NCBI RefSeq assembly: GCF_007754155.1
Contig: NZ_CP037423.1
Span: forward strand, 5,238,865 to 5,302,864
DNA length: 64,000 nucleotides
Source: Stieleria neptunia
GTDB taxonomy: Bacteria; Planctomycetota; Planctomycetia; Pirellulales; Pirellulaceae
Direction: 5' to 3'
Positions 14,408-64,000 of this stretch are shown piece by piece. Position 1 is the stretch's first letter; each line of letters starts with the position of its first letter. Below the pieces are notes generated by a model. It had not been told where the DNA came from. It saw only the letters and a list, made by a program, of their open reading frames with translations, and searched no databases. The translations under genes were made by a program, and so were the position numbers.

Positions 14408-15148
14408 TCATCTGGCGGCTTGTTGTAATAGCTGCATCACTTCTGTCCAGTCGAGCGATCGGGCGTAATCCAGCGCCGTCCAACCGCGATCGCAGGTTGC
14501 ATGGACGTTGGCGTTGTTTTCCAGCAGTACTTTTACCGACGGGCCTCGACCGAACAGTGATACCATGTGCAGCAGCGTTCGGCCGCCGTCAAACACTTCG
14601 TCGACGGTGGCGGGGTCGGCTGCGATCTGTTGGGCGAGCACCGAAGCGATCATGTTTTCGAAAGCATCGCAGGTTTCGGGGATGTTGACGGTTTCCGGCG
14701 GCGGAAAATCCAATTCCCAGGCCTCGTCATGACGCGGACGCTCAACGGCGTCCATCCGCGAACGGATCACTTGCACGGTGAAACCGCCGTAGACGACGCC
14801 GTCGATCACGCACAGCCAATCATCCAGTTGGGGCAGCGGAAATTCGACATCGTCACCCTCGCTGACCGAACGCAGTTTGTTCGGAGCGTTGAGCAGCACG
14901 CCGGTGACGTTGATGCCATCAAAATCAACCTGCTCCACCCACATGTGCTCCAGGTCCGAGTCGGGATCCGAAAAGTCATCGCAGAACGGTACCTTCACGC
15001 ACGAGAGTTCGCATGCCGGGACGATGCGGTTGAAGTCCTGGCTGACACAATTGAAAAAATGACGAAACGATTCCCGTGCGGCCTTCGACGCACGGAGCAT
15101 CTGTGGGTCGTCGCCGAGGTGATAGGTGACTGGATTGGAATGAGTCAT
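14408..15148 (-). CDS. DUF2314 (YegJ-like) plus ankyrin-repeat protein
   Basis: 246 residues. Residues 15-135 match DUF2314: ASKAARESFRHFF, then EHMWVEQVDFDGINVTGVLL with N-A-P and GDDVEFPLPQLDDWLCVIDG. Proteins of this type (for example Escherichia coli YegJ) are small and of unknown function. Here a second part follows: residues 165-246 contain ankyrin-like repeats (GGRTLLHMVSLFGRGPSVKV, then DRGWTALDYARSLDWTEVMQ), normally used for protein binding. No signal or membrane segment. It stands alone between the PhnD-like gene and a divergent PEP-CTERM gene. The fusion suggests that the DUF2314 part is delivered to, or controlled by, a protein partner; inference only. Confidence 0.75.
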   Translation of the reverse strand: MTHSNPVTYHLGDDPQMLRASKAARESFRHFFNCVSQDFNRIVPACELSCVKVPFCDDFSDPDSDLEHMWVEQVDFDGINVTGVLLNAPNKLRSVSEGDDVEFPLPQLDDWLCVIDGVVYGGFTVQVIRSRMDAVERPRHDEAWELDFPPPETVNIPETCDAFENMIASVLAQQIAADPATVDEVFDGGRTLLHMVSLFGRGPSVKVLLENNANVHATCDRGWTALDYARSLDWTEVMQLLQQAAR

Positions 15149-53605: not shown

Positions 53606-54174
53606 GATGGCTGAACGATGGGTGGCAGAACGATGGGTGGCAGAACGATGGGATGGCAGAACGAAGGGATGGCAGAACGATGGGATGGCAGAACGATGGG
53701 ATGGCAGAACGATGGGATGGCAGAACGATGGGATGGCAGAACGATGGGATGGCAGAACGATGGGGTGGCAGAACGATGGGATGGCAGAACGATGGGACGG
53801 CGGAACGATGGGACGGCGGAACGATGGGACGGCGGAACGATGGGACGGCGGAACGATGGGACGGCGGAACGATGGGACGGCGGAACGATGGGACGGCGGA
53901 ACGATGGGACGGCGGAACGATGGGACGGCGGAACGATGGGACGGCGGAACGATGGGACGGCGGAACGATGGGACGGCGGAACGATGGGACGGCGGAACGA
54001 TGGGACGGCGGAACGATGGGATGGCAGAATGATGGGATGGCAGAATGATGGGATGGCAGAATGATGGGACGGCAGAATGATGGGACGGCAGAATGATGGG
54101 ACGGCAGAATGATGGGACGGCAGAATGATGGGACGGCAGAATGATGGGACGGCAGAATGATGGGACGGCGGAAT
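53606..54174. repeat. 36-unit minisatellite, 16-bp period
   Basis: Unit GATGGGAYGGCRGAAY. By direct count: one 11-base and two 15-base units at the start, then 33 units of 16 bases. Variants occur in blocks: GATGGGATGGCAGAAC (with two single-base variants, 53647-53790), fourteen identical GATGGGACGGCGGAAC (53791-54014), three GATGGGATGGCAGAAT (54015-54062), six GATGGGACGGCAGAAT (54063-54158) and a last GACGGCGGAAT unit. All three plus frames and two minus frames are open because the unit has no stops; none has a plausible start signal. Partial inverted units follow at about 54206-54246. Confidence 0.95.
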
Positions 54175-54566
54175 GATTCTGGCTCCAAGACCGGAGCGGT
54201 CAGAACATGATTCTGCCACTTCCAATCATCCTGCCGTTCCGCCATCGAGAACGCCGTCTTCTCCAGCGGACGGTGACTGTCTGCTGCTGCGTCGCTGCAA
54301 ACGCCAGATGGCGGTCAGGTTCATGGATGTAACCTGTCGCAACGGCTCTACCGGCCGCGGCGAATGACGCGACGATATGTAGACGCGAACTCGCTTTTTG
54401 GCGATGATCCCGCAATCACGCGCTGCGCCGCAGTGGAGCGATCTCGGTAGAATGCCCGACGCTGGAAAGTTTTTTTCCACTGGTCGGAGGTCGCTTTCTC
54501 GGTTCGGACGGCTACCCTTGTCGTCGCTCATCAAAAGCCGAACCTTCATCACACTCATCAATTCGC
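54175..54566. other. Upstream region of CNNM/CorC gene
   Basis: Begins with decayed and inverted fragments of the minisatellite unit (CCTGCCGTTCCGCCATC near 54230-54246). No gene supported. The promoter of the following gene is presumably in the last 150 bases. Confidence 0.35.
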
Positions 54567-55952
54567 ATGATCGGATCACTCTGTTGTTTTTGTCTGGCGC
54601 TGGTCGCCGAAGTCGAACCGGTCATCGAGGGCAGCGAGGCGGGGGGCAGCGGTCGGACGCTGCTGTATCTGACCATCGCAGTGTTTCTGATCATTTTGAA
54701 CGGCTTTTTTGTGGCCGCGGAATTTGCGCTCGTCAAAGTGCGTGTGTCGCGGATTGAGCAACTCGCCCGCGAAGGCAAGCTCTTTGCCAACACCGCCCGC
54801 TGGCTCGCCGAGCGTTTGGACGAATCGCTGTCGGCATGCCAGCTCGGGATCACCATGGCCTCCCTGGCGCTCGGCTGGGTCGGTGAGCCGGCGTTTTCCA
54901 AACTGGTCGAACCGTTGCTGGGCTGGGTGGGCGTGACCGATGAAGCAGTCGTCAAGGTGATCGGATTTGCGATCGCGTTTTCGGTGATCACCGGGTTGCA
55001 TTTGGTGACCGGCGAACAGTTCCCAAAGATCTTTGCCATTCGCCGCCCCGAACAGGTGTTGTTGTGGTGTGCGATTCCGCTCAAGTTCTTCTACGTCATC
55101 CTGTATCCGTTTCTCACGGTTCTGAATATCGTCACGACGTATCTGTTGAAATTGGTGGGTATCCGCGGGGCGTCGGATCACGAATCGGTCAGCACGGAAG
55201 ACGAGATCCGCGCGTTGCTGACGGAGGCCCATGTGCATGGCAATCTGACGCGCAGCGAACATCGTCTGATTAACAACGTCTTTGAATTCGATGATCTGAT
55301 CGTGCGTCGCGTGATGTTGCCCCGCGGCGACGTCATTTTCTTTGATGTCAACGAACCGATTTCGGTCCTTCGCGACCTGGTTCGGACGACCATGCACACG
55401 CGCTACCCCGTCTGTGACCGATCGTTGGACAAGGTGCTCGGCGTGGTGCACATCAAGGACTTGTTGACGGTTCCCGAGGCGGATTCGGATTTCGATGTCC
55501 GGACCATCATTCGTCCTCCCAAGAAAGTCCACGAGACGATGCCGATCAGCAAGGTGCTGAGACATTTTCAGGCGACGCATCAGTTGTTGGCGTTTGTGAT
55601 CGACGAATACGGCACGATCACGGGGATGGTGACGCTGGAAAATGTGCTGGAGCGGATCGTCGGTGAAGTCGACGATGAGTTTGACAACGCCGATCCGAAC
55701 ATCGTTCCCGAAGGCAAAGCTGAATTTGTGGTCAACGGCACGACACCGATCGATGAGGTGCGACGGCGACTGGCCATTCCGCTGAACGAATCCGACGAGG
55801 CGGACACGATCAGCGGCATGCTGATGGATTTTCATCAGAAGATTCTGACCCAGGGTGATCGCATCGAATTGGAAGGAGCGGTCGCGGAGGTTTTGGAGAT
55901 GAAGAACGATAGCGCCACCAAGATCCGTTTCCGGCTGACGACCGCGGAGTGA
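54567..55952 (+). CDS. CNNM/CorC-family transporter (DUF21, CBS pair, CorC_HlyC)
   Basis: 461 residues. Residues 1-20 may be an extra hydrophobic leader. DUF21 (CNNM transmembrane domain) spans about 30-205 with LIILNGFFVAAEFALVKVRV and SLALGWVGEPAF; the family's usual GE-x-x-PK motif reads TGEQFPK. Two CBS domains (about 225-345) include RVMLPRGDVIFFDVNEPIS and YPVCDRSLDKVLGVVHIKDL, then FVIDEYGTITGMVTLENVLE. The C-terminal CorC/HlyC domain (about 365-455) reads EFVVNGTTPIDEVRRRLAIP. Members are linked to magnesium/cobalt efflux or resistance, regulated by nucleotide at the CBS pair. Old annotations as hemolysin are not functional evidence. It stands alone upstream of the ATP-grasp operon, 290 bases away. 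Confidence 0.9.
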   Translation: MIGSLCCFCLALVAEVEPVIEGSEAGGSGRTLLYLTIAVFLIILNGFFVAAEFALVKVRVSRIEQLAREGKLFANTARWLAERLDESLSACQLGITMASLALGWVGEPAFSKLVEPLLGWVGVTDEAVVKVIGFAIAFSVITGLHLVTGEQFPKIFAIRRPEQVLLWCAIPLKFFYVILYPFLTVLNIVTTYLLKLVGIRGASDHESVSTEDEIRALLTEAHVHGNLTRSEHRLINNVFEFDDLIVRRVMLPRGDVIFFDVNEPISVLRDLVRTTMHTRYPVCDRSLDKVLGVVHIKDLLTVPEADSDFDVRTIIRPPKKVHETMPISKVLRHFQATHQLLAFVIDEYGTITGMVTLENVLERIVGEVDDEFDNADPNIVPEGKAEFVVNGTTPIDEVRRRLAIPLNESDEADTISGMLMDFHQKILTQGDRIELEGAVAEVLEMKNDSATKIRFRLTTAE

Positions 55953-56242: not shown

Positions 56243-57034
56243 ATGAGCGACGCGATTTGGCGAGTTCAGCGAGGCGAAGGCCCGTTGGTGGCGACCGCGG
56301 TCCACGACGGACACGCGATGCGCGACGACGTGTTGTCGCAGGTCAAACTCGATGACCGTGGTCGGCTCCGTGAAGAAGACCCGTTCACCGGACTCTGGAC
56401 CAAGTGTGCGCCCACACGGGTCATCGGATTGCGGTCACGGTTCGAAGTCGATTTGAACCGCCCTCGCGACAAAGCGGTTTACCGGACGCCTGAGGATGCG
56501 TGGGGGTTGACGGTTTGGAAGGACCATCCGGCCGATGAAATGTTTGCAACATCATTGGACCAGTACGATGCGTTCTATGCTGCGATGCAAGCGATGCTGA
56601 GCGGCATCGTGGCGGAGCAGGGACACTTCGTCCTCTACGATTTGCACACCTACAATCACCGACGGACCGGGCCGACCGGAGCAATCGCCGATCCACTGGA
56701 AAACCCACAGGTCAACATCGGCACGGGAACGATGGACCGCCGGCGTTGGGGGCACGTGGTGGACGCCTTGATCGAAGGGTTGCGAGAGTTCGACTTCCCG
56801 GGCGGCAAACTGGATGTCCGAGAGAACGTCAAGTTTCGTGGCGGCAATTGGCCGCGTTGGATTCATGAAACGTTTCCGACGTCCGGTGTCGCGATCGCGA
56901 TCGAATTCAAAAAGTTCTTCATGGACGAGTGGAGCGGCCAGCCGGATCCCGCCGCCGTCGACGCGATTTCGGATGCCCTTCAATACTCGGTGCCCTTTGT
57001 CATGGACGCCTTCAACCACCCGCGGCTTGTTTAG
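56243..57034 (+). CDS. N-formylglutamate amidohydrolase family protein
   Basis: 263 residues, with GGGAGGTG ten bases before the ATG. Family elements: VATAVHDGHAMR (metal-binding His/Asp near residue 20), DLNRPRDKAVYR, the LYDLHTYNHRR segment (second metal His), DPLENPQVNIGTGTMDRRRW and VAIAIEFKKFFMDEW with the catalytic/metal Glu. The family hydrolyses N-formyl or related amides of acidic amino acids in histidine breakdown, but no hut genes are here. It is the first gene of a tight operon with DUF1704 and ATP-grasp proteins (4-base gap to the next gene), so its real substrate is probably an amide or peptide product of those ligases. Confidence 0.88.
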   Translation: MSDAIWRVQRGEGPLVATAVHDGHAMRDDVLSQVKLDDRGRLREEDPFTGLWTKCAPTRVIGLRSRFEVDLNRPRDKAVYRTPEDAWGLTVWKDHPADEMFATSLDQYDAFYAAMQAMLSGIVAEQGHFVLYDLHTYNHRRTGPTGAIADPLENPQVNIGTGTMDRRRWGHVVDALIEGLREFDFPGGKLDVRENVKFRGGNWPRWIHETFPTSGVAIAIEFKKFFMDEWSGQPDPAAVDAISDALQYSVPFVMDAFNHPRLV

Positions 57035-57038
57035 AACG

Positions 57039-58997
57039 ATGACCACCACCACACACGGAAAACGAACGATTGCCAAGGCCGAAACGAACCGCGTCCCGGA
57101 ATCGTTGATCGCGGCGGTTCGCGATCGATTGTCACGGAACGAACGCGTGCGTCGGACGTTGCCGCACAAGGGGCGCCTGCACATCGACCGACAAGTTCCG
57201 TTTCTGTGCGTTTATCGCCAACCGCCGGAATACGATGATGCCGGAACCGAGCAGCTGGTGCGGGGCGAGGCCTCGTACTTGATCGGGTCGGGAGCGTCAG
57301 AGTTTCATGACAGTCTGTCGAAGCTGGTGGGGACGGTCGTCAAGACGCTGTCGGCGGAATTTGGCGCGTTTCTGATCGTCGAAATCTGGTCGTCGCCCGA
57401 CGGTGGCAAGGCCAACGATCCCGCGGTGCCATCGGTGTTGCCGACGTTTACGATTCAAGCACCCGGCACCGCCAAACTGGACAACGCCGTCGAGTCACTT
57501 CGCAAACGTCTTCAGAAAATGAAGATTCTGAAACACGGAGTTGAGGTCCAAGTGGTTCGCGGCGGCACGATCTGTCCGCCGGGAATGAAGCCGCTGATCG
57601 ATTCGCCACGTGCGCGTGAAATGAACTGTTGGAAGATCGGTTTGATGGTCCCACCCGTGTTCCGCAAAGCGAACACCTCCGTCGAGTTTCCGCTCCTAAT
57701 GGGCCAGTTGCGGAGAAGTCTCAGTCATGCGCTTCGACACGCTTATTTTCAGTTTGCTTGTGACCGGACGACGCACAGCCCTGATCACTTCCATACGCTG
57801 GGTCGAAAAGCGGTGGTCAAAGCGGTTTGGGACATCGACCGGCAACTCGCCGAAGTCAGTAATCAATTCGATTATTTGCTTCAATTAACGCCGGTCAATC
57901 CGACCAGCGCTTGGAAAGAGTTCGAAGCCGGTCAGTGCAAGCATCCGCCCGAGTTTCATTATCGTCCGCTGCCGGTCGATCCGGCGCTGTTGAAACGACA
58001 ACTCTATAAGATTCCGATCGAACGTGTCGAAGATCCCTCATTGCAGCGACTTTTTGAAGAGAAGCAGGAAGAGCTGGAATTGAAGCTCACCATGCTGAGG
58101 GACCGAGACACGCCGCGATTCAAGCACCTCAGTATGGCGCTGTTCGGCGGAGTCAACGATGCCGTGCTCCGCATTGCCAAAGAGTTATTGACGACACTGC
58201 CGGCGAAGTCTTCCCCGAGCAAGGCGAACCTGTTTTCAGCCAAGCAGTTTGCCGCGTGTGTTCAGAAGGAGATTGACCACTACCGTGGCGTTTGTCCGGA
58301 TTTCAAAGCCAAAGTCGTCATTTCGGATGACGCCAGCGGGTTGATCGTCTCTCGCGGCAGGCTGATGGTGAACTCCGATTTGATGCTCGCAGAGGACCGA
58401 GTGGCGGCCTTGCTGGCACACGAAGTCGGAACACACCTGGTGACCTATTACAACGGCCGATTGCAACCGTTTCAGCAACTCTATTCGGGGCTGGCTGGAT
58501 ATGAAGAGTTACAGGAAGGTCTGGCGGTGTTGTCGGAGTACTTGGTCGGCGGATTGACCACCTCGCGGATCCGGCAGCTCGGCGCCCGTGTCGTCGCGGT
58601 CCGTCAGATGGTCGACGGCGCGTCCTTCGTCGAGAATTTTCATTCGATCCACGACGATTTTGGCTTGAGCAAGCGCGCGGCCTACAATGTCGTGATGCGG
58701 GTCTATCGCGGCGGCGGATTGACGAAAGACTGCGTTTATCTACGCGGGCTGATCGCGATTTTGAAATACGTGCAAAAGGGCGGCGACTTGAATCCGCTGC
58801 TGGTCGGCAAGATGGCGGTTAAGCACATACCGATCATCAAAGAATTGCAATATCGCGGCGTGCTCAGCAAGGCGCCGATCACGCCACGATTCATGCAAGA
58901 CCCGCTAGCGATCGGGCGGCTGGCAAAGCTACGGGGCGGCGTCGGCTCTGTCGTCGATTTGGTGTCGGAACTCAAGACAAATGGAAGTGTCGGATGA
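57039..58997 (+). CDS. DUF1704 (QEGLA-motif) zincin, paralogue A
   Basis: 652 residues from ATG 57039. The N-terminal ~300 residues are an alpha/beta region (HIDRQVPFLCVYRQPPEYDD, FGAFLIVEIWSSP); the C-terminal half is the DUF1704 metallopeptidase-like domain. Zinc motif H461-E462-V-G-T-H466 (LLAHEVGTHLVTYYNG) and, 27 residues on, E493 in LQEGLAVLSEYLVGG, the expected third ligand. This HExxxH...E pattern is shared with the eukaryotic tubulin carboxypeptidase MATCAP, a member of the same family. Bacterial members are often called flavohemoglobin-expression-modulating QEGLA protein, a name with little functional basis. It overlaps the following ATP-grasp gene by four bases. A peptidase or amidase acting on a ligase product is inferred. 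Confidence 0.9.
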   Translation: MTTTTHGKRTIAKAETNRVPESLIAAVRDRLSRNERVRRTLPHKGRLHIDRQVPFLCVYRQPPEYDDAGTEQLVRGEASYLIGSGASEFHDSLSKLVGTVVKTLSAEFGAFLIVEIWSSPDGGKANDPAVPSVLPTFTIQAPGTAKLDNAVESLRKRLQKMKILKHGVEVQVVRGGTICPPGMKPLIDSPRAREMNCWKIGLMVPPVFRKANTSVEFPLLMGQLRRSLSHALRHAYFQFACDRTTHSPDHFHTLGRKAVVKAVWDIDRQLAEVSNQFDYLLQLTPVNPTSAWKEFEAGQCKHPPEFHYRPLPVDPALLKRQLYKIPIERVEDPSLQRLFEEKQEELELKLTMLRDRDTPRFKHLSMALFGGVNDAVLRIAKELLTTLPAKSSPSKANLFSAKQFAACVQKEIDHYRGVCPDFKAKVVISDDASGLIVSRGRLMVNSDLMLAEDRVAALLAHEVGTHLVTYYNGRLQPFQQLYSGLAGYEELQEGLAVLSEYLVGGLTTSRIRQLGARVVAVRQMVDGASFVENFHSIHDDFGLSKRAAYNVVMRVYRGGGLTKDCVYLRGLIAILKYVQKGGDLNPLLVGKMAVKHIPIIKELQYRGVLSKAPITPRFMQDPLAIGRLAKLRGGVGSVVDLVSELKTNGSVG

Positions 58998-60025
58998 GAT
59001 TGGGAATCGTCGTCAATGTGATGGGCAGCGAAGAAGCCGGTGCGACCACGTATCGTTTGGCCGCCGAAGCGACCAGCCTGGGGCATGAGGTCTGGATCGT
59101 CAGTACGGGAAATCTGTCCTACGACGCCAACGACACGATCGGTGCGTTCGCCCGGATGGTGCCGCCAGGGAAATACAGTTCGCAAAAGTACCTAACGCTG
59201 CTCAAAGGCCCCAAGGCGATCAACGAATGGATCACGGTCGACGATTTGGACGTGTTGCTATTGCGCAGCAATCCATCGGTTCAGCGTGCCTGGGCTCAAT
59301 CCGCCGGCATCCACTTCGGTCGACTCGCCATGCGTCATGGCGTGATCGTGTTGAACGATCCCAACGGATTGTCCAAAGCGATGAACAAGTTGTATTTGCA
59401 GACCTTTCCCGAACCGGTTCGTCCACGAACGGTGGTCACCCGCAGTCTGAGTCGCGTGACGGCGTTTCTTAAAGCGGAAAAAACGATCATTCTGAAACCG
59501 TTGCAGGGTTCCGGTGGGACGGGGGTTTTTATCGCGCGGAGCGATGAAAACCACAACATGGAGGACATCTTTGAATCGGTCAGCCGTGACGGTTACGTGA
59601 TTGCCCAACAGTACCTGCCGGCTGCGGCGGAAGGCGACACACGGTTGTTTTTGATGAACGGGCTGCCGCTGCGTCACAAGGGAAAATACGCCGCGTTCCG
59701 ACGCGTTCGCACCGGCGACGACATACGCAGCAACATTCACGCCGGCGGTCGGCTCCGTAGGGCCGTTGTCAACGACACGATGTTCGAACTGGCCGAAATG
59801 GTCCGTCCGCGATTGGTCGAGGACGGCATGTTCTTGGTCGGGCTGGACATCGTGGGCGACAAGCTGATGGAGATCAACGTTTTCTCCCCGGGCGGTTTGG
59901 GCAGTGCCCAGAAATTCGAAAAAGTCAACTTCACCCACGCGGTGCTCGACGCTTTGGAACGAAAGGTCGACTACATGCGGTACTACCGGCGCAACTTTAG
60001 CAACGTTGAGCTGGCTACTCTTTGA
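58994..60025 (+). CDS. Glutathione-synthetase-like ATP-grasp ligase 1
   Basis: 343 residues; ATG overlaps the previous stop (ATGA). N-terminal pre-ATP-grasp domain (LGIVVNVMGSEEAGATTYRL), ATP-grasp core from about residue 115 (VLNDPNGLSKAMNKLYLQTF, KPLQGSGGTGVFIAR), then KGKYAAFRRV-RSNIHAGGR and the metal-binding end VGLDIVGDKLMEINVFSPGG, which parallels the GshB signature around EINVTSPTG. Such enzymes form amide or peptide bonds through an acyl phosphate. It is the most divergent of the three copies: the VPSDDYL-RPWA segment of copies 2 and 3 is replaced by SNPSVQRAWAQS. Substrates unknown. Confidence 0.92.
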   Translation: MRLGIVVNVMGSEEAGATTYRLAAEATSLGHEVWIVSTGNLSYDANDTIGAFARMVPPGKYSSQKYLTLLKGPKAINEWITVDDLDVLLLRSNPSVQRAWAQSAGIHFGRLAMRHGVIVLNDPNGLSKAMNKLYLQTFPEPVRPRTVVTRSLSRVTAFLKAEKTIILKPLQGSGGTGVFIARSDENHNMEDIFESVSRDGYVIAQQYLPAAAEGDTRLFLMNGLPLRHKGKYAAFRRVRTGDDIRSNIHAGGRLRRAVVNDTMFELAEMVRPRLVEDGMFLVGLDIVGDKLMEINVFSPGGLGSAQKFEKVNFTHAVLDALERKVDYMRYYRRNFSNVELATL

Positions 60026-60062
60026 TGCTGTTTTACTACTCTCGTGACCCCAAGGCGGATCG

Positions 60063-61106
60063 ATGAAAATTGGATTTGTAGTCAACGATGTTTTGACCGA
60101 AGAGGCGGGCTATTCCACCACGCGTCTGGGCTGTGAAGCCGTCAATCAAGGCCACGAGGTGTTTGTCATCGGTGTCGGCGATTTCGCCTACGACCCGGAC
60201 GAATCGATCCGCGCCCGGGCCCGCAGCGTGCCGCAAAAAAAGTACGGCAACCACGAAGCGTATTTGAAGGATTTGCAGGGCCAGAAGTCCGTCAAATCGC
60301 GAGTCACGGTGGATGATCTGGATGTGCTGATGCTTCGCAACGTGCCCTCGGACGACTATCTGAAACGCCCCTGGGCATCCTCGTCGGCCGCCGAGTTCGG
60401 CCGCGTGGCGATGCGGCACGGTGTGATCGTGGTCAACGATCCGAACGGATTGTCCAAAGCGTCGACCAAGATGTACTTTCAACTGTTTCCCGAAGAAGTC
60501 CGTCCGCGAACGCTGATCACCCGTGATCGCGACGAGATCAAGGACTTTGCCAAATCCGAAGGCCGCTGCGTGCTCAAGCCGCTGCAGGGTTCGGGCGGGG
60601 CGAGCGTGTTTCTGGTCACCGAGAGCGACATCCCGAACTTGAACCAAATGATCGACGCGGTCAGCCGAGACGGATTTGTGATCGCCCAAGAGTATTTGCC
60701 GGCGGCTGCCGATGGCGACATGCGGTTGTTCATCATGAACGGCCGACCGCTGCAGGTGAAAGGAAAATACGCCGCGTTTCGACGTGTCCGCAGCGGCGGC
60801 GACATGCGCAGCAACATCCACGCCGGCGGCAAGCTGGCGGCGGCAGAGATCGGCGAGTTGGAACTGAAGATTGCCGAGATCGTGCGTCCAAAACTGGTCC
60901 AAGACGGGATGTTCCTGGTCGGCTTGGACATCGTCGGTGACAAATTAATGGAGATCAACGTGTTCAGCCCCGGTGGGCTGGGCAGCGCCCAGAAGTTTAC
61001 AAAAATCAATTTCAACAAGTACGTGATCGCGGCGTTGGAACGCAAAGTGAACTACATGCAGTACTACGGACGCAACTTCGACAACGTCGACATGTGCACG
61101 CTGTGA
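60063..61106 (+). CDS. Glutathione-synthetase-like ATP-grasp ligase 2
   Basis: 347 residues; starts 37 bases after copy 1, with AAGGCGG upstream. Same architecture: IGFVVNDVLTEEAGYSTTRL, the VPSDDYLKRPWASSSAAEFG block, DPNGLSKASTKMYFQLFPEE, KPLQGSGGASVFLVTESDIP, KGKYAAFRRVRSGGDMRSNI and VGLDIVGDKLMEINVFSPGG. It resembles copy 3 more closely than copy 1 over most of its length. The nucleotide loop and the Glu/Asn metal ligands are intact, so it should be active. Stop and next start share a base (TGATG). Probably adds a different unit from copy 1, or forms a heteromer with it; neither is shown. Confidence 0.92.
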   Translation: MKIGFVVNDVLTEEAGYSTTRLGCEAVNQGHEVFVIGVGDFAYDPDESIRARARSVPQKKYGNHEAYLKDLQGQKSVKSRVTVDDLDVLMLRNVPSDDYLKRPWASSSAAEFGRVAMRHGVIVVNDPNGLSKASTKMYFQLFPEEVRPRTLITRDRDEIKDFAKSEGRCVLKPLQGSGGASVFLVTESDIPNLNQMIDAVSRDGFVIAQEYLPAAADGDMRLFIMNGRPLQVKGKYAAFRRVRSGGDMRSNIHAGGKLAAAEIGELELKIAEIVRPKLVQDGMFLVGLDIVGDKLMEINVFSPGGLGSAQKFTKINFNKYVIAALERKVNYMQYYGRNFDNVDMCTL

Positions 61107-63043
61107 TGTTGACGTCCCAGGTTAGCGAAGACCACGAGGCGATTTCCGACGCGGTGATCGAAGGGATTTGTGTGCGTTTGGCCGAAGACAAGCGGATTCG
61201 GCAGCGGCTGCCCGGCGGCGGGATCCTGCAGATGGATCGGTTGTTGCCATTTCTGTGCGTCTATCGCCGCAACCCTCGACGACGTGATGAAGGCACGGCG
61301 CGGCTGGTGATGTCCGAGGCGTCGTTCCTGTGCGCCCCCGGCACAGCTCCCGTCCGCACGGGTTTGAAGCGTCTGGTGCTCCGGATTGCCGAAACCGCGA
61401 TCGAGCGTCTCGGTTCGTTTTTGATCCTCGAAGTCTGGTCCGGCGAAGATCGCCCCCAGTACGATCCGTCGACCGGGGAGATCGAATTGCCGCGTCCCGA
61501 GTTTCAGTTGTTGACACGGCGTCCGCACCGACCCGAAGGCACGGTGGCGACGTTGCAGTTCGCGCTGCAGCAGATCAGTCTTCATCGCAAGAAGGCCGCG
61601 GTGCGAGTCAACATGCATGCCCAGAATCATCCACCCGGCATGACGGCGTTGATTCCCGAATCGATCGAAACAAAGATCGGATGCCATGTGTTGGGACTGG
61701 AGGTCCGACCGGTCTATCGCGACCCGGAATCCGGCGAAGTCTACGACCGTGTGGCGACCTCGTTTGTTCGCGACGTGTCTCATTCGTTGAAAAAAGGCTT
61801 CTTCGCCTTCGCGCTCCATCGAACAGAGGTTCGCCCGCAGCACTATTTCTCACTCGGCGTCAGTCGTTTGTCCAAGCAAGTGCTGGTCATCGATCGGCAG
61901 TTGGCCGACCTGAGCCGACAATTCAAATTTCTGCTGTTGGTCACTCCGATCAATGCCGAACGCGCCTGGGAGAAGTTTTCCGAATCGGGGTTCCGCAAAA
62001 CCCCGGTCTTTCAGTACCGGCCGTTGGATGTTGACCCGTTGCTGCTGAAGCGGCGGCTGATGAAGATTCCCACCGAACGTGTGACCGATCCGACGTTGGC
62101 GTATGTGCTCAGGCAAGCCCAGTCCGAACTGGATCGGCAGATTTCGATGCTGGCCGATATCGGAACCCGTCGCTTTTTGCCGGGCAGTTTGCAAGTCTTT
62201 GAAGGCGTCAAACCGAAGCTTCGTGAGCTGTCCCTGGAGATTCTGAAAACGCTGAGCCATCGCGAGTCGGCGTCCAAGGAATTGCCGCTGCTCGACGCAA
62301 CCGCCTTTGCCCAACGGGCGAATGCCGAAATCCAATACTATCGGGATCAATCCCCCGCGTTTCTGGCCCAGGCCAGCGTCCGCGACGACATGTTTTCGGG
62401 GTTGATGGTGGCCGGCGCGGAACTGTTGATCGGTCGCGAAACTCGGATCGCCGAACGACGCGCCGACGCGCTGCTGCAACATGAAGTCGGAACGCATTTG
62501 GTCACTTACTTCAACGGAGCGAGTCAGCCGCTGCGATTGTTACAGGTCGGGTTGTCGGGTTATGACGCGTTGCAGGAGGGGCTGGCCGTGCTGGCGGAGT
62601 ACCTGGTCGGCGGATTGAGTGGTGCGCGAATGCGAACGCTGGCCGCACGCGTGATCGCCGTCGGCGATATGATTCGGGGCGAGACGTTCGCGAGTGTCTT
62701 TGCGCAACTCGTCGACGGATTCGGTTTCGAACCGCGGACGGCCTACACGATCACGATGCGAGTGTTTCGTGGCGGCGGCTTGACGAAAGATGCGTTGTAC
62801 CTGCAGGGCTTGGTCGAAATCTTGGACTATTTGGGCGGCGGTGGTGAAGTCGAGCCGCTGTTGACCGGCAAGATCGCCGTCGAACATGTTCCGGTCGTCC
62901 GTGAACTGCTGTTCCGAGGCATCCTGCGTCCACCGGCGCTGCGCCCCAAATACCTGGACTCGCCCGAGGCGCAGGTGCGACTCGACGGTATCCATTCCCG
63001 GACCACGGTTCTTGATCTCATCGACAACGAAAAGGGTTTATGA
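61106..63043 (+). CDS. DUF1704 (QEGLA-motif) zincin, paralogue B
   Basis: 645 residues from ATG 61106. It matches paralogue A through its whole length (LQMDRLLPFLCVYRRNPRRR; FLILEVWSGEDRP; LLKRRLMKIPTERVTDPTLA) and keeps the zinc motif H459-E460-V-G-T-H464 (LLQHEVGTHLVTYFNG) and E491 (LQEGLAVLAEYLVGGLSGAR). The two copies differ most in the N-terminal half, where specificity may lie. Its start overlaps the ligase 2 stop and its stop overlaps the ligase 3 start (TGATG at both ends), so the block is translationally coupled. With paralogue A it would give the pathway two different trimming or transfer activities; inference. Confidence 0.9.
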   Translation: MLTSQVSEDHEAISDAVIEGICVRLAEDKRIRQRLPGGGILQMDRLLPFLCVYRRNPRRRDEGTARLVMSEASFLCAPGTAPVRTGLKRLVLRIAETAIERLGSFLILEVWSGEDRPQYDPSTGEIELPRPEFQLLTRRPHRPEGTVATLQFALQQISLHRKKAAVRVNMHAQNHPPGMTALIPESIETKIGCHVLGLEVRPVYRDPESGEVYDRVATSFVRDVSHSLKKGFFAFALHRTEVRPQHYFSLGVSRLSKQVLVIDRQLADLSRQFKFLLLVTPINAERAWEKFSESGFRKTPVFQYRPLDVDPLLLKRRLMKIPTERVTDPTLAYVLRQAQSELDRQISMLADIGTRRFLPGSLQVFEGVKPKLRELSLEILKTLSHRESASKELPLLDATAFAQRANAEIQYYRDQSPAFLAQASVRDDMFSGLMVAGAELLIGRETRIAERRADALLQHEVGTHLVTYFNGASQPLRLLQVGLSGYDALQEGLAVLAEYLVGGLSGARMRTLAARVIAVGDMIRGETFASVFAQLVDGFGFEPRTAYTITMRVFRGGGLTKDALYLQGLVEILDYLGGGGEVEPLLTGKIAVEHVPVVRELLFRGILRPPALRPKYLDSPEAQVRLDGIHSRTTVLDLIDNEKGL

Positions 63044-64000
63044 TGCGCATCGGCTTTCTCGTCAACGACGTCACCACAGAAGCGGGCAATTTCACCACCA
63101 GTCGGTTAGGCCAGTCGGCGGTCAATCTCGGACATGAAGTCTGGGTGATGGGCGTGGGCGATTTAGCATACGACCCCGACGGCATGATTCGCGCTCGAGC
63201 CTGCTCGGTTCCCAAGAAACGCTATAGCAATTCGGAGACTTACACGGCGGAGCTGCAAGGCAAGAAGGGCGTCCGCAGTCGCATCACCGTCGACGAGTTG
63301 GATGTGTTGATGCTGCGCAACGTCCCCTCGGACGACTATCTGTCACGCCCTTGGGCGGCGACCACAGCCAGCGAATTTGCACGGACCGCGATGCGACACG
63401 GGGTGATCGTGCTGAGCGACCCGACAGGTTTGTCGCAAGCGTCAAGCAAGATGTATTTTCAACTGTTTCCCGAAGAGGTGCGGCCCAAGACGCTGATCAC
63501 CCGCGACCGCGATGACATCAAGCATTTCGCCAAAGAGGAGGGAAAGATCGTCATCAAACCGCTGCAGGGTTCCGGGGGCGCGAGCGTCTTCTTGGTGCGT
63601 CCGGAGGACATTCCCAACCTGAACCAGATGATCGACGCGGTCAGCCGAGACGGGTTTGTGATCGCCCAGGAGTTTCTGCCCGCGGCCGAGCAGGGCGATA
63701 CTCGATTGTTCGTGATGAACGGTCGACCGCTCCGCGTCAAAGGCAAGTACGCCGCATTTCGACGCGTCCGCAGCGGTGGCGACATGCGCAGTAACATTCA
63801 TGCGGGGGGGCAAAAGGCGGCAGCCGAAATCGACCACACCGCGCTGCGAATCGCTGAGATTGTGCGTCCCAAGTTGGTTCAAGACGGCATGTTTTTGGTC
63901 GGTTTGGACATCGTGGGTGACAAATTGATGGAAATCAATGTGTTCAGCCCCGGCGGGTTGGGGAGCGCCCAACAGTTCGAAAAGGTCAACTTCTCGGCAC
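63043..64000 (+). CDS. Glutathione-synthetase-like ATP-grasp ligase 3, cut by window edge
   Basis: Open from ATG 63043 to the end of the window (319 codons), with no stop. It reads MRIGFLVNDVTTEAGNFTTS, the VPSDDYLSRPWAATTASEFA block, DPTGLSQASSKMYFQLFPEE, KPLQGSGGASVFLVRPEDIP, KGKYAAFRRVRSGGDMRSNI and VGLDIVGDKLMEINVFSPGG. By comparison with copies 1 and 2 only about 25 residues are missing. The ATP-grasp motifs are intact. The start overlaps the paralogue B stop. It is the last visible gene of the operon, which may continue beyond the window. Confidence 0.92.
   Translation, partial: MRIGFLVNDVTTEAGNFTTSRLGQSAVNLGHEVWVMGVGDLAYDPDGMIRARACSVPKKRYSNSETYTAELQGKKGVRSRITVDELDVLMLRNVPSDDYLSRPWAATTASEFARTAMRHGVIVLSDPTGLSQASSKMYFQLFPEEVRPKTLITRDRDDIKHFAKEEGKIVIKPLQGSGGASVFLVRPEDIPNLNQMIDAVSRDGFVIAQEFLPAAEQGDTRLFVMNGRPLRVKGKYAAFRRVRSGGDMRSNIHAGGQKAAAEIDHTALRIAEIVRPKLVQDGMFLVGLDIVGDKLMEINVFSPGGLGSAQQFEKVNFSA

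Follow-up and report, generated by a model that had tools for sequence, protein, structure and literature searches.

A ligase, zincin and amidohydrolase operon in Stieleria neptunia as a candidate duplicated form of a widespread three-gene cassette

What would a bacterium do with three ATP-grasp ligases, two peptidase-like zincins and an amidohydrolase encoded side by side? The question arises from a 64,000-nucleotide stretch of the Stieleria neptunia genome (NZ_CP037423.1, positions 5,238,865 to 5,302,864 of the forward strand; hereafter the window), which is one contig of 10,975,817 bases and has its closest named protein relatives in Stieleria. Six genes at the end of the window encode a stand-alone hydrolase of the N-formylglutamate amidohydrolase family (FGase), two proteins bearing a zincin domain like that of human tubulin carboxypeptidase (MATCAP1 and MATCAP2), and three ligases resembling the glutathione synthetase GshB (GRASP1 to GRASP3) (Table 1). 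An earlier note, made from the letters of the window, had proposed that these genes make a small peptide or amino-acid conjugate and shorten it from the C-terminus, which is plausible, with a product that is only hypothetical. We consider it moderately probable that the operon represents a widespread cassette of three genes, here duplicated, that adds and trims amide bonds and is linked to ion or osmotic balance.

The same-strand operon that the note described held up, as all six open reading frames (ORFs) lie on the plus strand, adjacent to one another, with Pfam matches to FGase, MATCAP or GSH-S_ATP. With the MATCAP1 start set at 57039, FGase and MATCAP1 are separated by a 4-base gap, MATCAP1 and GRASP1 overlap by 4 bases, GRASP1 and GRASP2 are 37 bases apart, GRASP2 and MATCAP2 overlap by 13 bases, and MATCAP2 and GRASP3 overlap by 4. 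This gives three stop/start overlaps; the four claimed earlier are reached only from an upstream MATCAP1 start at 56814. Extending the contig located the end of the operon: GRASP3 (348 residues, with its stop at window coordinate 64086, 86 bases past the window end) is the last cassette gene and is followed by chemosensory genes. The six genes recur in identical order in three genomes of the same genus (G150, G153 and G160) and in a metagenome-assembled genome named Rhodopirellula sp. (L091). Because this order recurs in relatives and a core trio is kept across phyla, the operon is confirmed as real and not a product of chance.

The trio emerged from a contig scan with 67 MATCAP relatives, which yielded 78 loci from the 80 strongest among at least 566 confirmed matches and is therefore biased toward the window's MATCAP type. 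Setting aside three loci from the window's genus (L088 to L090) and one whose MATCAP frame is split (L122) leaves 74, some of them contigs that also occur in the planctomycete genome set described below (L125 and L061, for example); 56 have full context, 1.3 kb on either side. Both FGase and ligase accompany MATCAP in 46 of these 56, spanning 14 named phyla (ligase in 53, FGase in 46), with FGase within 200 bases of MATCAP in 43 and the ligase within 100 bases in 47. The counts rest on a non-overlap ORF rule, under which L125 was scored as partnerless though the same stretch, as L061, shows both genes.

Whole genomes gave a sharper view of the linkage. Among 149 planctomycete genomes, FGase (E 1e-20) occurs in nine, exactly those with this MATCAP type; eight of the nine have the stand-alone form and none of the other 140 genomes does (Fisher P 1.8e-12), while the ninth, G036, carries FGase as a fused domain. 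Eight of the nine have the ligase at E<1e-100, G036 again differing in that its ligase is divergent. Across 30 close relatives, ligases at this threshold are confined to six genomes, the ones that carry this type of MATCAP. The expectation that these genes stay together was thus borne out. Long-type MATCAPs were recognized in planctomycetes by BLAST alignment length and identity, which takes in the contig-truncated MATCAP of G132, where FGase and MATCAP lie on different contigs, and the intact fusion of G036; G022, G086 and G136 were classed as short from frames of 407–453 residues. At 24 loci of short MATCAPs (about 440 residues), no FGase match was found and one locus (L079) had a ligase, 40% identical, about 1 kb away; no nameable partner recurred there beyond two groups of three, of which one consists of related genomes and the other is unannotated. 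In the sister genome G161, the ammonium transporter region, the CNNM gene and the chemosensory genes stand in the same order with no cassette, and the aligned CNNM-to-CheW blocks are 178 bases apart as against 8255 in the window genome (G000). The cassette was gained or lost here as one block, and the chemosensory genes can stand without it.

The doubled and tripled gene content, thought unusual in the earlier note, proved otherwise. More than one MATCAP or ligase was counted in 17 of the 56 full-context loci (14 once L111, L131 and L140 are removed, whose additional ligase ORF is just a short fragment), so multiplication is common. A Verrucomicrobiota locus (L133:9211-20466) goes beyond the window, with one FGase, three MATCAPs and three ligases.

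Table 1. Cassette genes of the window and the adjoining transporter gene, in window coordinates
Feature	Description	Coordinates	Strand	Best Pfam match
CNNM (neighbor)	CNNM/CorC-family transporter with CBS domains	54567..55952	+	PF01595 E 9e-51
FGase	Stand-alone N-formylglutamate-amidohydrolase-family (M14-like) hydrolase, 263 aa	56243..57034	+	PF05013 E 5.9e-19
MATCAP1	Degenerate FGase-type domain (N-terminal) and MATCAP zincin (C-terminal), 652 aa	57039..58997	+	PF08014 E 1.9e-93
GRASP1	GshB-like ATP-grasp ligase, old GRASP1 clade, 343 aa	58994..60025	+	PF02955 E 2.7e-48
GRASP2	GshB-like ATP-grasp ligase, 347 aa	60063..61106	+	PF02955 E 2.6e-51
MATCAP2	Degenerate FGase-type domain and MATCAP zincin	61094..63043	+	PF08014 E 9.3e-91
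GRASP3	GshB-like ATP-grasp ligase	63040..64000, runs past window	+	PF02955 E 6.4e-52 (L003:11905-12951)

Both window MATCAPs exceed the TIGR02421 cut-off of 338.65 bits, MATCAP1 at 349.6 bits. Their zincin domains have the fold of human tubulin carboxypeptidase with a conserved HExxxH, third-ligand Glu and KDxVYLxG segment, in agreement with the note, and are predicted zinc carboxypeptidases of the MATCAP/TIGR02421 QEGLA family. Of 83 MATCAP proteins, 78 have the zinc motif HE[VI]GTH literally and 81 have EG[LI]A, with near-variants in the others. What the first reading missed, and what is new here, is that both operon MATCAPs are two-domain proteins whose N-terminal half has an FGase fold. 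That reading also did not reach the intact FGase-MATCAP fusions, the absence of the whole block from a sister genome or the lead from low salinity. In MATCAP2 this domain spans residues ~40-243 and the zincin ~280-644, with HEVGTH at 463-468 and the Glu at E495. The FGase active-site motifs, including their His and Glu, are gone from the N-terminal domains of MATCAP1 and MATCAP2 though the fold is kept: none of the four is retained in any of 110 close relatives (those of at least 600 residues among the best 120 of 1800 matches) or of 83 proteins from many phyla, window copies included. Looser patterns matched 4 more of 86 MATCAP proteins, none with DxH[STG][YFH]. Of the 67 rows in the accompanying alignment, 58 come from the 120 proteins listed, and a quick tree places MATCAP1 and MATCAP2 in separate clades. 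In searches of solved structures by sequence, none matched MATCAP2 alone and none matched the FGase profile at E 0.01.

The stand-alone FGase, in contrast, has the PF05013 profile and fold with active-site motifs intact (alignment of 48 rows, the window and 47 of 52 listed loci). It shares family and fold with HutG, yet scores 23.8 bits against a cut-off of 278.75 for the HutG equivalog TIGR02017, so a strict N-formylglutamate deformylase role, as the family name in the note might suggest, was not sustained.

Relatives in which the N-terminal domain is intact help to interpret this arrangement. In Photobacterium sp. DA100, the ligase gene overlaps a MATCAP gene whose N-terminal domain is a Pfam FGase (E 3.4e-14) with its motifs present, and a planctomycete locus, L068, likewise pairs a ligase with an intact FGase-MATCAP fusion; neither stretch contains a separate FGase match. 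Among 120 fusion relatives (all of the best 120 of 807 matches), of which the named ones are mostly Photobacterium and other Gammaproteobacteria, DxH[ASTG]Y is kept in 113, together with ExKK and EEDP in 110, and two have none of the four motifs. On rhizobial megaplasmids, the fused protein aligns over two neighboring genes, FGase and then MATCAP. Because the same N-terminal domain is intact in a fusion family whose two loci read here have no separate FGase, these comparisons point to FGase and MATCAP being one functional unit; the two are joined in one lineage, whereas in the other they are split and a degenerate twin domain is kept. Upstream of the fusion loci L171 and L172 lie a DUF413 (maoP) gene (L171:5781-6185, L172:5530-5889) and a regulator-type gene in divergent orientation, LysR by annotation in L172 and LysR-like by eye in L171; DUF413 precedes the ligase-fusion pair in Photobacterium and the fusion in Vibrio.

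All three ligases appear competent by sequence. GRASP2 matches E. coli GshB (1gsa) at E 6.2e-39, and when the three were mapped on that enzyme, the positions that we take to bind ATP and Mg and to include the substrate arginine were intact, so that their active sites are not predicted to be dead, a point on which the note had staked its proposal. GRASP1 belongs to a clade of 11 rows (support 100/100) that spans Planctomycetota, Verrucomicrobiota and Gemmatimonadota. Since loci L136 and L133 hold this clade beside other ligase types, the GRASP1 duplication looks old; in the ligase tree, GRASP2 and GRASP3 split later. GRASP1 has also changed near the conserved acceptor-side arginine (D9 to V9, D98 to Q97), which suggests a different acceptor. 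In G149, GRASP1 itself is gone, leaving a 32-residue match and 155 bases between MATCAP1 and GRASP2 (L049:12480-12914). Elsewhere, in Scalindua/Brocadiaceae (L117:11909-12955, L120:3041-4087 and L123:7251-8297), the first of two ligases sits on a long branch, carries the changes E281G, N283D and R225W in GshB numbering, and is likely a pseudo-ligase beside an intact copy.

In the mechanism we favor, an ATP-grasp ligase, passing through an acyl-phosphate, would extend a small peptide or protein tail at its carboxylate by an amino acid, MATCAP would remove residues from the C-terminus again, and FGase would cleave an amide of another kind in that substrate. The two hydrolases, FGase and MATCAP, would act as one physical unit, which in one branch is a single protein with two apparently intact active sites; in the window's branch, the motif-less fused domain probably serves as a base on which the intact, free-standing FGase docks or which holds the substrate for it. 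Because there are two ligase types (GRASP1 versus GRASP2 and GRASP3) and two MATCAP types, two ligations may take place, successive or alternative. Retention of the GshB N-terminal domain leads us to lean slightly toward a small peptide over a protein tail as substrate. The cycle, whose direction we infer, probably serves ion or osmotic adjustment.

This last step draws on neighbors and on salt responses. Genes of the Mg-transporter families CNNM or MgtE adjoin the cassette at 10 of the 75 loci from outside the genus, L107 among them with the gene inside the cassette. Outside the core, 10 CNNM/MgtE genes were near and 0 far (P 3.6e-5, with related genomes counted separately). Pfam censuses compared 90 of 101 same-strand neighbors with 90 of 100 sampled distal genes, under differing strand and length rules: the near set held MgtE_N five times, TrkA_C four times and CNNM three times, none of which appears in the part of the far-set list shown, 25 of its 182 families, while mechanosensitive channels were found twice in each. 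MscS channels, suspected from clustering, were entered as a linked family at 8 near and 7 far (P 0.13) and rejected. In Photobacterium damselae, one study reports that at 1% versus 3% NaCl a 'GshB' gene (RS17020), treated by its authors as glutathione synthetase, rises 38.4-fold, a 'QEGLA' gene (RS17025) 27.5-fold and MgtE 5.35-fold (PMC10308900). The P. damselae protein P0142 is an intact FGase-MATCAP fusion, and in a sister species ligase and fusion are adjacent; from the neighboring locus tags, we infer that RS17020 is the cassette ligase.

Several points weigh against this reading, in which substrate, product and any precursor peptide are hypothetical. Comparing profiles between the two FGase-type families gives a weak match (E 4.6e-4, probability 33%). 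Seven of the 56 full-context loci have a ligase with no FGase nearby and three have neither, although L125 among these is an artifact. Six of the 149 planctomycete genomes (G018, G065, G071, G107, G118 and G147) have weaker ligase matches (E 2e-25 to 1.9e-65) and no long MATCAP, which makes the association looser for the ligase than for FGase. GRASP1 has been lost in G149, and a Vibrio sp. HDW18 fusion has a decayed FGase site with no ligase annotated alongside. On the ionic side, CNNM/MgtE was chosen only after the data were seen, the far control of 90 held one CorA, and MscS is not enriched (by listed distances and a limit of 2.5 kb, 7 near and 8 far). The P. damselae pairing of ligase and fusion rests on neighboring locus tags, and the salt data concern the two-gene form, whose ligase (that of the sister species) is 31% identical to GRASP1; they would have to carry over from Photobacterium to the window's planctomycete.

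Of the alternatives, the one that survives best is modification of protein tails, in which the ligase would lengthen some cellular protein at its C-terminus, in the way of RimK with ribosomal protein S6, and MATCAP would trim it, a bacterial counterpart of the tubulin tyrosination/glutamylation cycle. RimK and RimB (RimABK) glutamylate and trim S6, and the cassette resembles them as a write-and-erase pair of ATP-grasp amide ligase and protease. The conserved fold and zinc site of the MATCAP half speak for such a role, as does the nearest solved ligase by sequence after GshB, which is the S6 glutamate ligase. The eukaryotic TMCPs strip C-terminal residues and polyglutamate (PMC10499314), and RimK too is up 52-fold in the same low-salinity P. 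damselae data (PMC10308900). The window ligases, however, are GshB-like and fall far short of the RimK-family model TIGR00768 (58-66 bits against a cut-off of 143.4), and the peptidases come from other families. The ligases also keep the GshB-type N-terminal domain PF02951, which is typical of small-molecule ligases, and no target protein was seen traveling with the cassette in the neighborhood data. We regard this reading as possible but doubtful.

A more specific version of the favored cassette is an osmotic sink for amides: at falling salinity, the ligase would tie free amino acids, of the glutamate type, into short chains or tails, leaving fewer dissolved particles and keeping the nitrogen, and the FGase-MATCAP unit would free them when salt returns, the fused FGase of the split branch being a dead docking base. 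We think this unlikely as stated; if true, it would be a previously unnamed salt-response system across many phyla, masked by the name glutathione synthetase.

That name stands for a further alternative, that the ligases are glutathione synthetases as publicly annotated and the operon makes and recycles glutathione. GRASP1, GRASP2 and GRASP3 do score 426, 453 and 440 bits with NF009110 (PRK12458 subfamily, 'glutathione synthetase'; cut-off 408), the fold and most active-site residues of GshB, catalytic and phosphate-binding, are shared, and GCS2 proteins that could supply a first step are present in the window genome. Yet all three fall below both glutathione synthase equivalog cut-offs (195-205 against 299.05 bits for TIGR01380; 211-216 against 272 for NF003573); the Photobacterium and L068 ligases pass NF003573 (291.7 and 274.4) and not TIGR01380. 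Where GshB has SPTC as its acceptor loop, all 75 aligned relatives (68 of 76 listed and 7 others) read SPGG or TPGG, T288-C289 becoming G-G, and PGG occupies this loop in the Photobacterium and Sinorhizobium meliloti ligases as well. In the set of 30 near relatives, a close ligase is always accompanied by this MATCAP type, whereas GCS2 is found in 23 with or without it, and glutathione leaves the two hydrolases unexplained. Together, the equivalog scores, the G-G loop and the differing distributions of ligase and GCS2 lead us to reject glutathione biosynthesis as the principal reading, and we judge it very unlikely.

Least probable is that the operon belongs to the downstream chemosensory cluster and acts on the receptor or methyl-transfer proteins encoded there. 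Although CheW-CheR-CheW-MCP follow the cassette in G000, G149, G150, G153 and G160 (with CheA and CheB read in G000 only), G161 has the same genes with no cassette, on which ground we reject the partnership as very improbable, and the 75 loci outside the genus, many of them short, show no such cluster; L149, L157 and L160 have just one match each that is CheR- or MCP-like.

For the cassette that we favor, the closest known counterpart is the rhizobial megaplasmid trio of FGase, QEGLA (DUF1704) and 'glutathione synthase', as on S. meliloti pSymB, which has the same families and order in overlapping or adjacent genes; we read this trio directly in L170 from S. meliloti 1021 (L170:5943-9744), and the annotation assigns it no function. 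The window form differs in having two MATCAPs and three ligases. From human MATCAP/TMCP (KIAA0895L), the bacterial protein differs by its extra front FGase-type domain and its ligase neighbors. A literature search recognized no paper on an FGase–MATCAP–ligase cassette by title or start of abstract, and phage records gave no match. Iyer et al. in 2009 reportedly surveyed such neighborhoods in work on amidoligases.

A widespread gene set carried publicly as glutathione synthase, QEGLA protein and N-formylglutamate amidohydrolase thereby gains a testable shape, one ligase with a two-headed hydrolase that is either an intact fusion or a split pair with a dead twin. It also gives the family of the human tubulin-trimming enzyme a bacterial context, and low salinity as a condition under which a product could be sought. 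By the same token, the 38-fold induced 'GshB' of P. damselae may not concern glutathione.

Around the cassette, some smaller features were noted. The genes after GRASP3 run CheW, CheR, CheW, MCP (with PAS), CheA (with two Hpt domains and a receiver) and CheB (L003:13033-20000, L004:277-4306), an order that we take to resemble the Wsp type; the next sizeable ORF past CheB is on the minus strand. The CheR gene contains a run of short repeats with NSLPA units, seen by eye (L003 about 14430-14550), around which three relatives align in two pieces. On the other side, between the ammonium transporter and CNNM genes, window positions 53609-54177 hold a tandem array of a 16-base unit, GGCAGAACGATGGGAC, in 35.7 copies at 97% match, which opens long and probably spurious reading frames on both strands.

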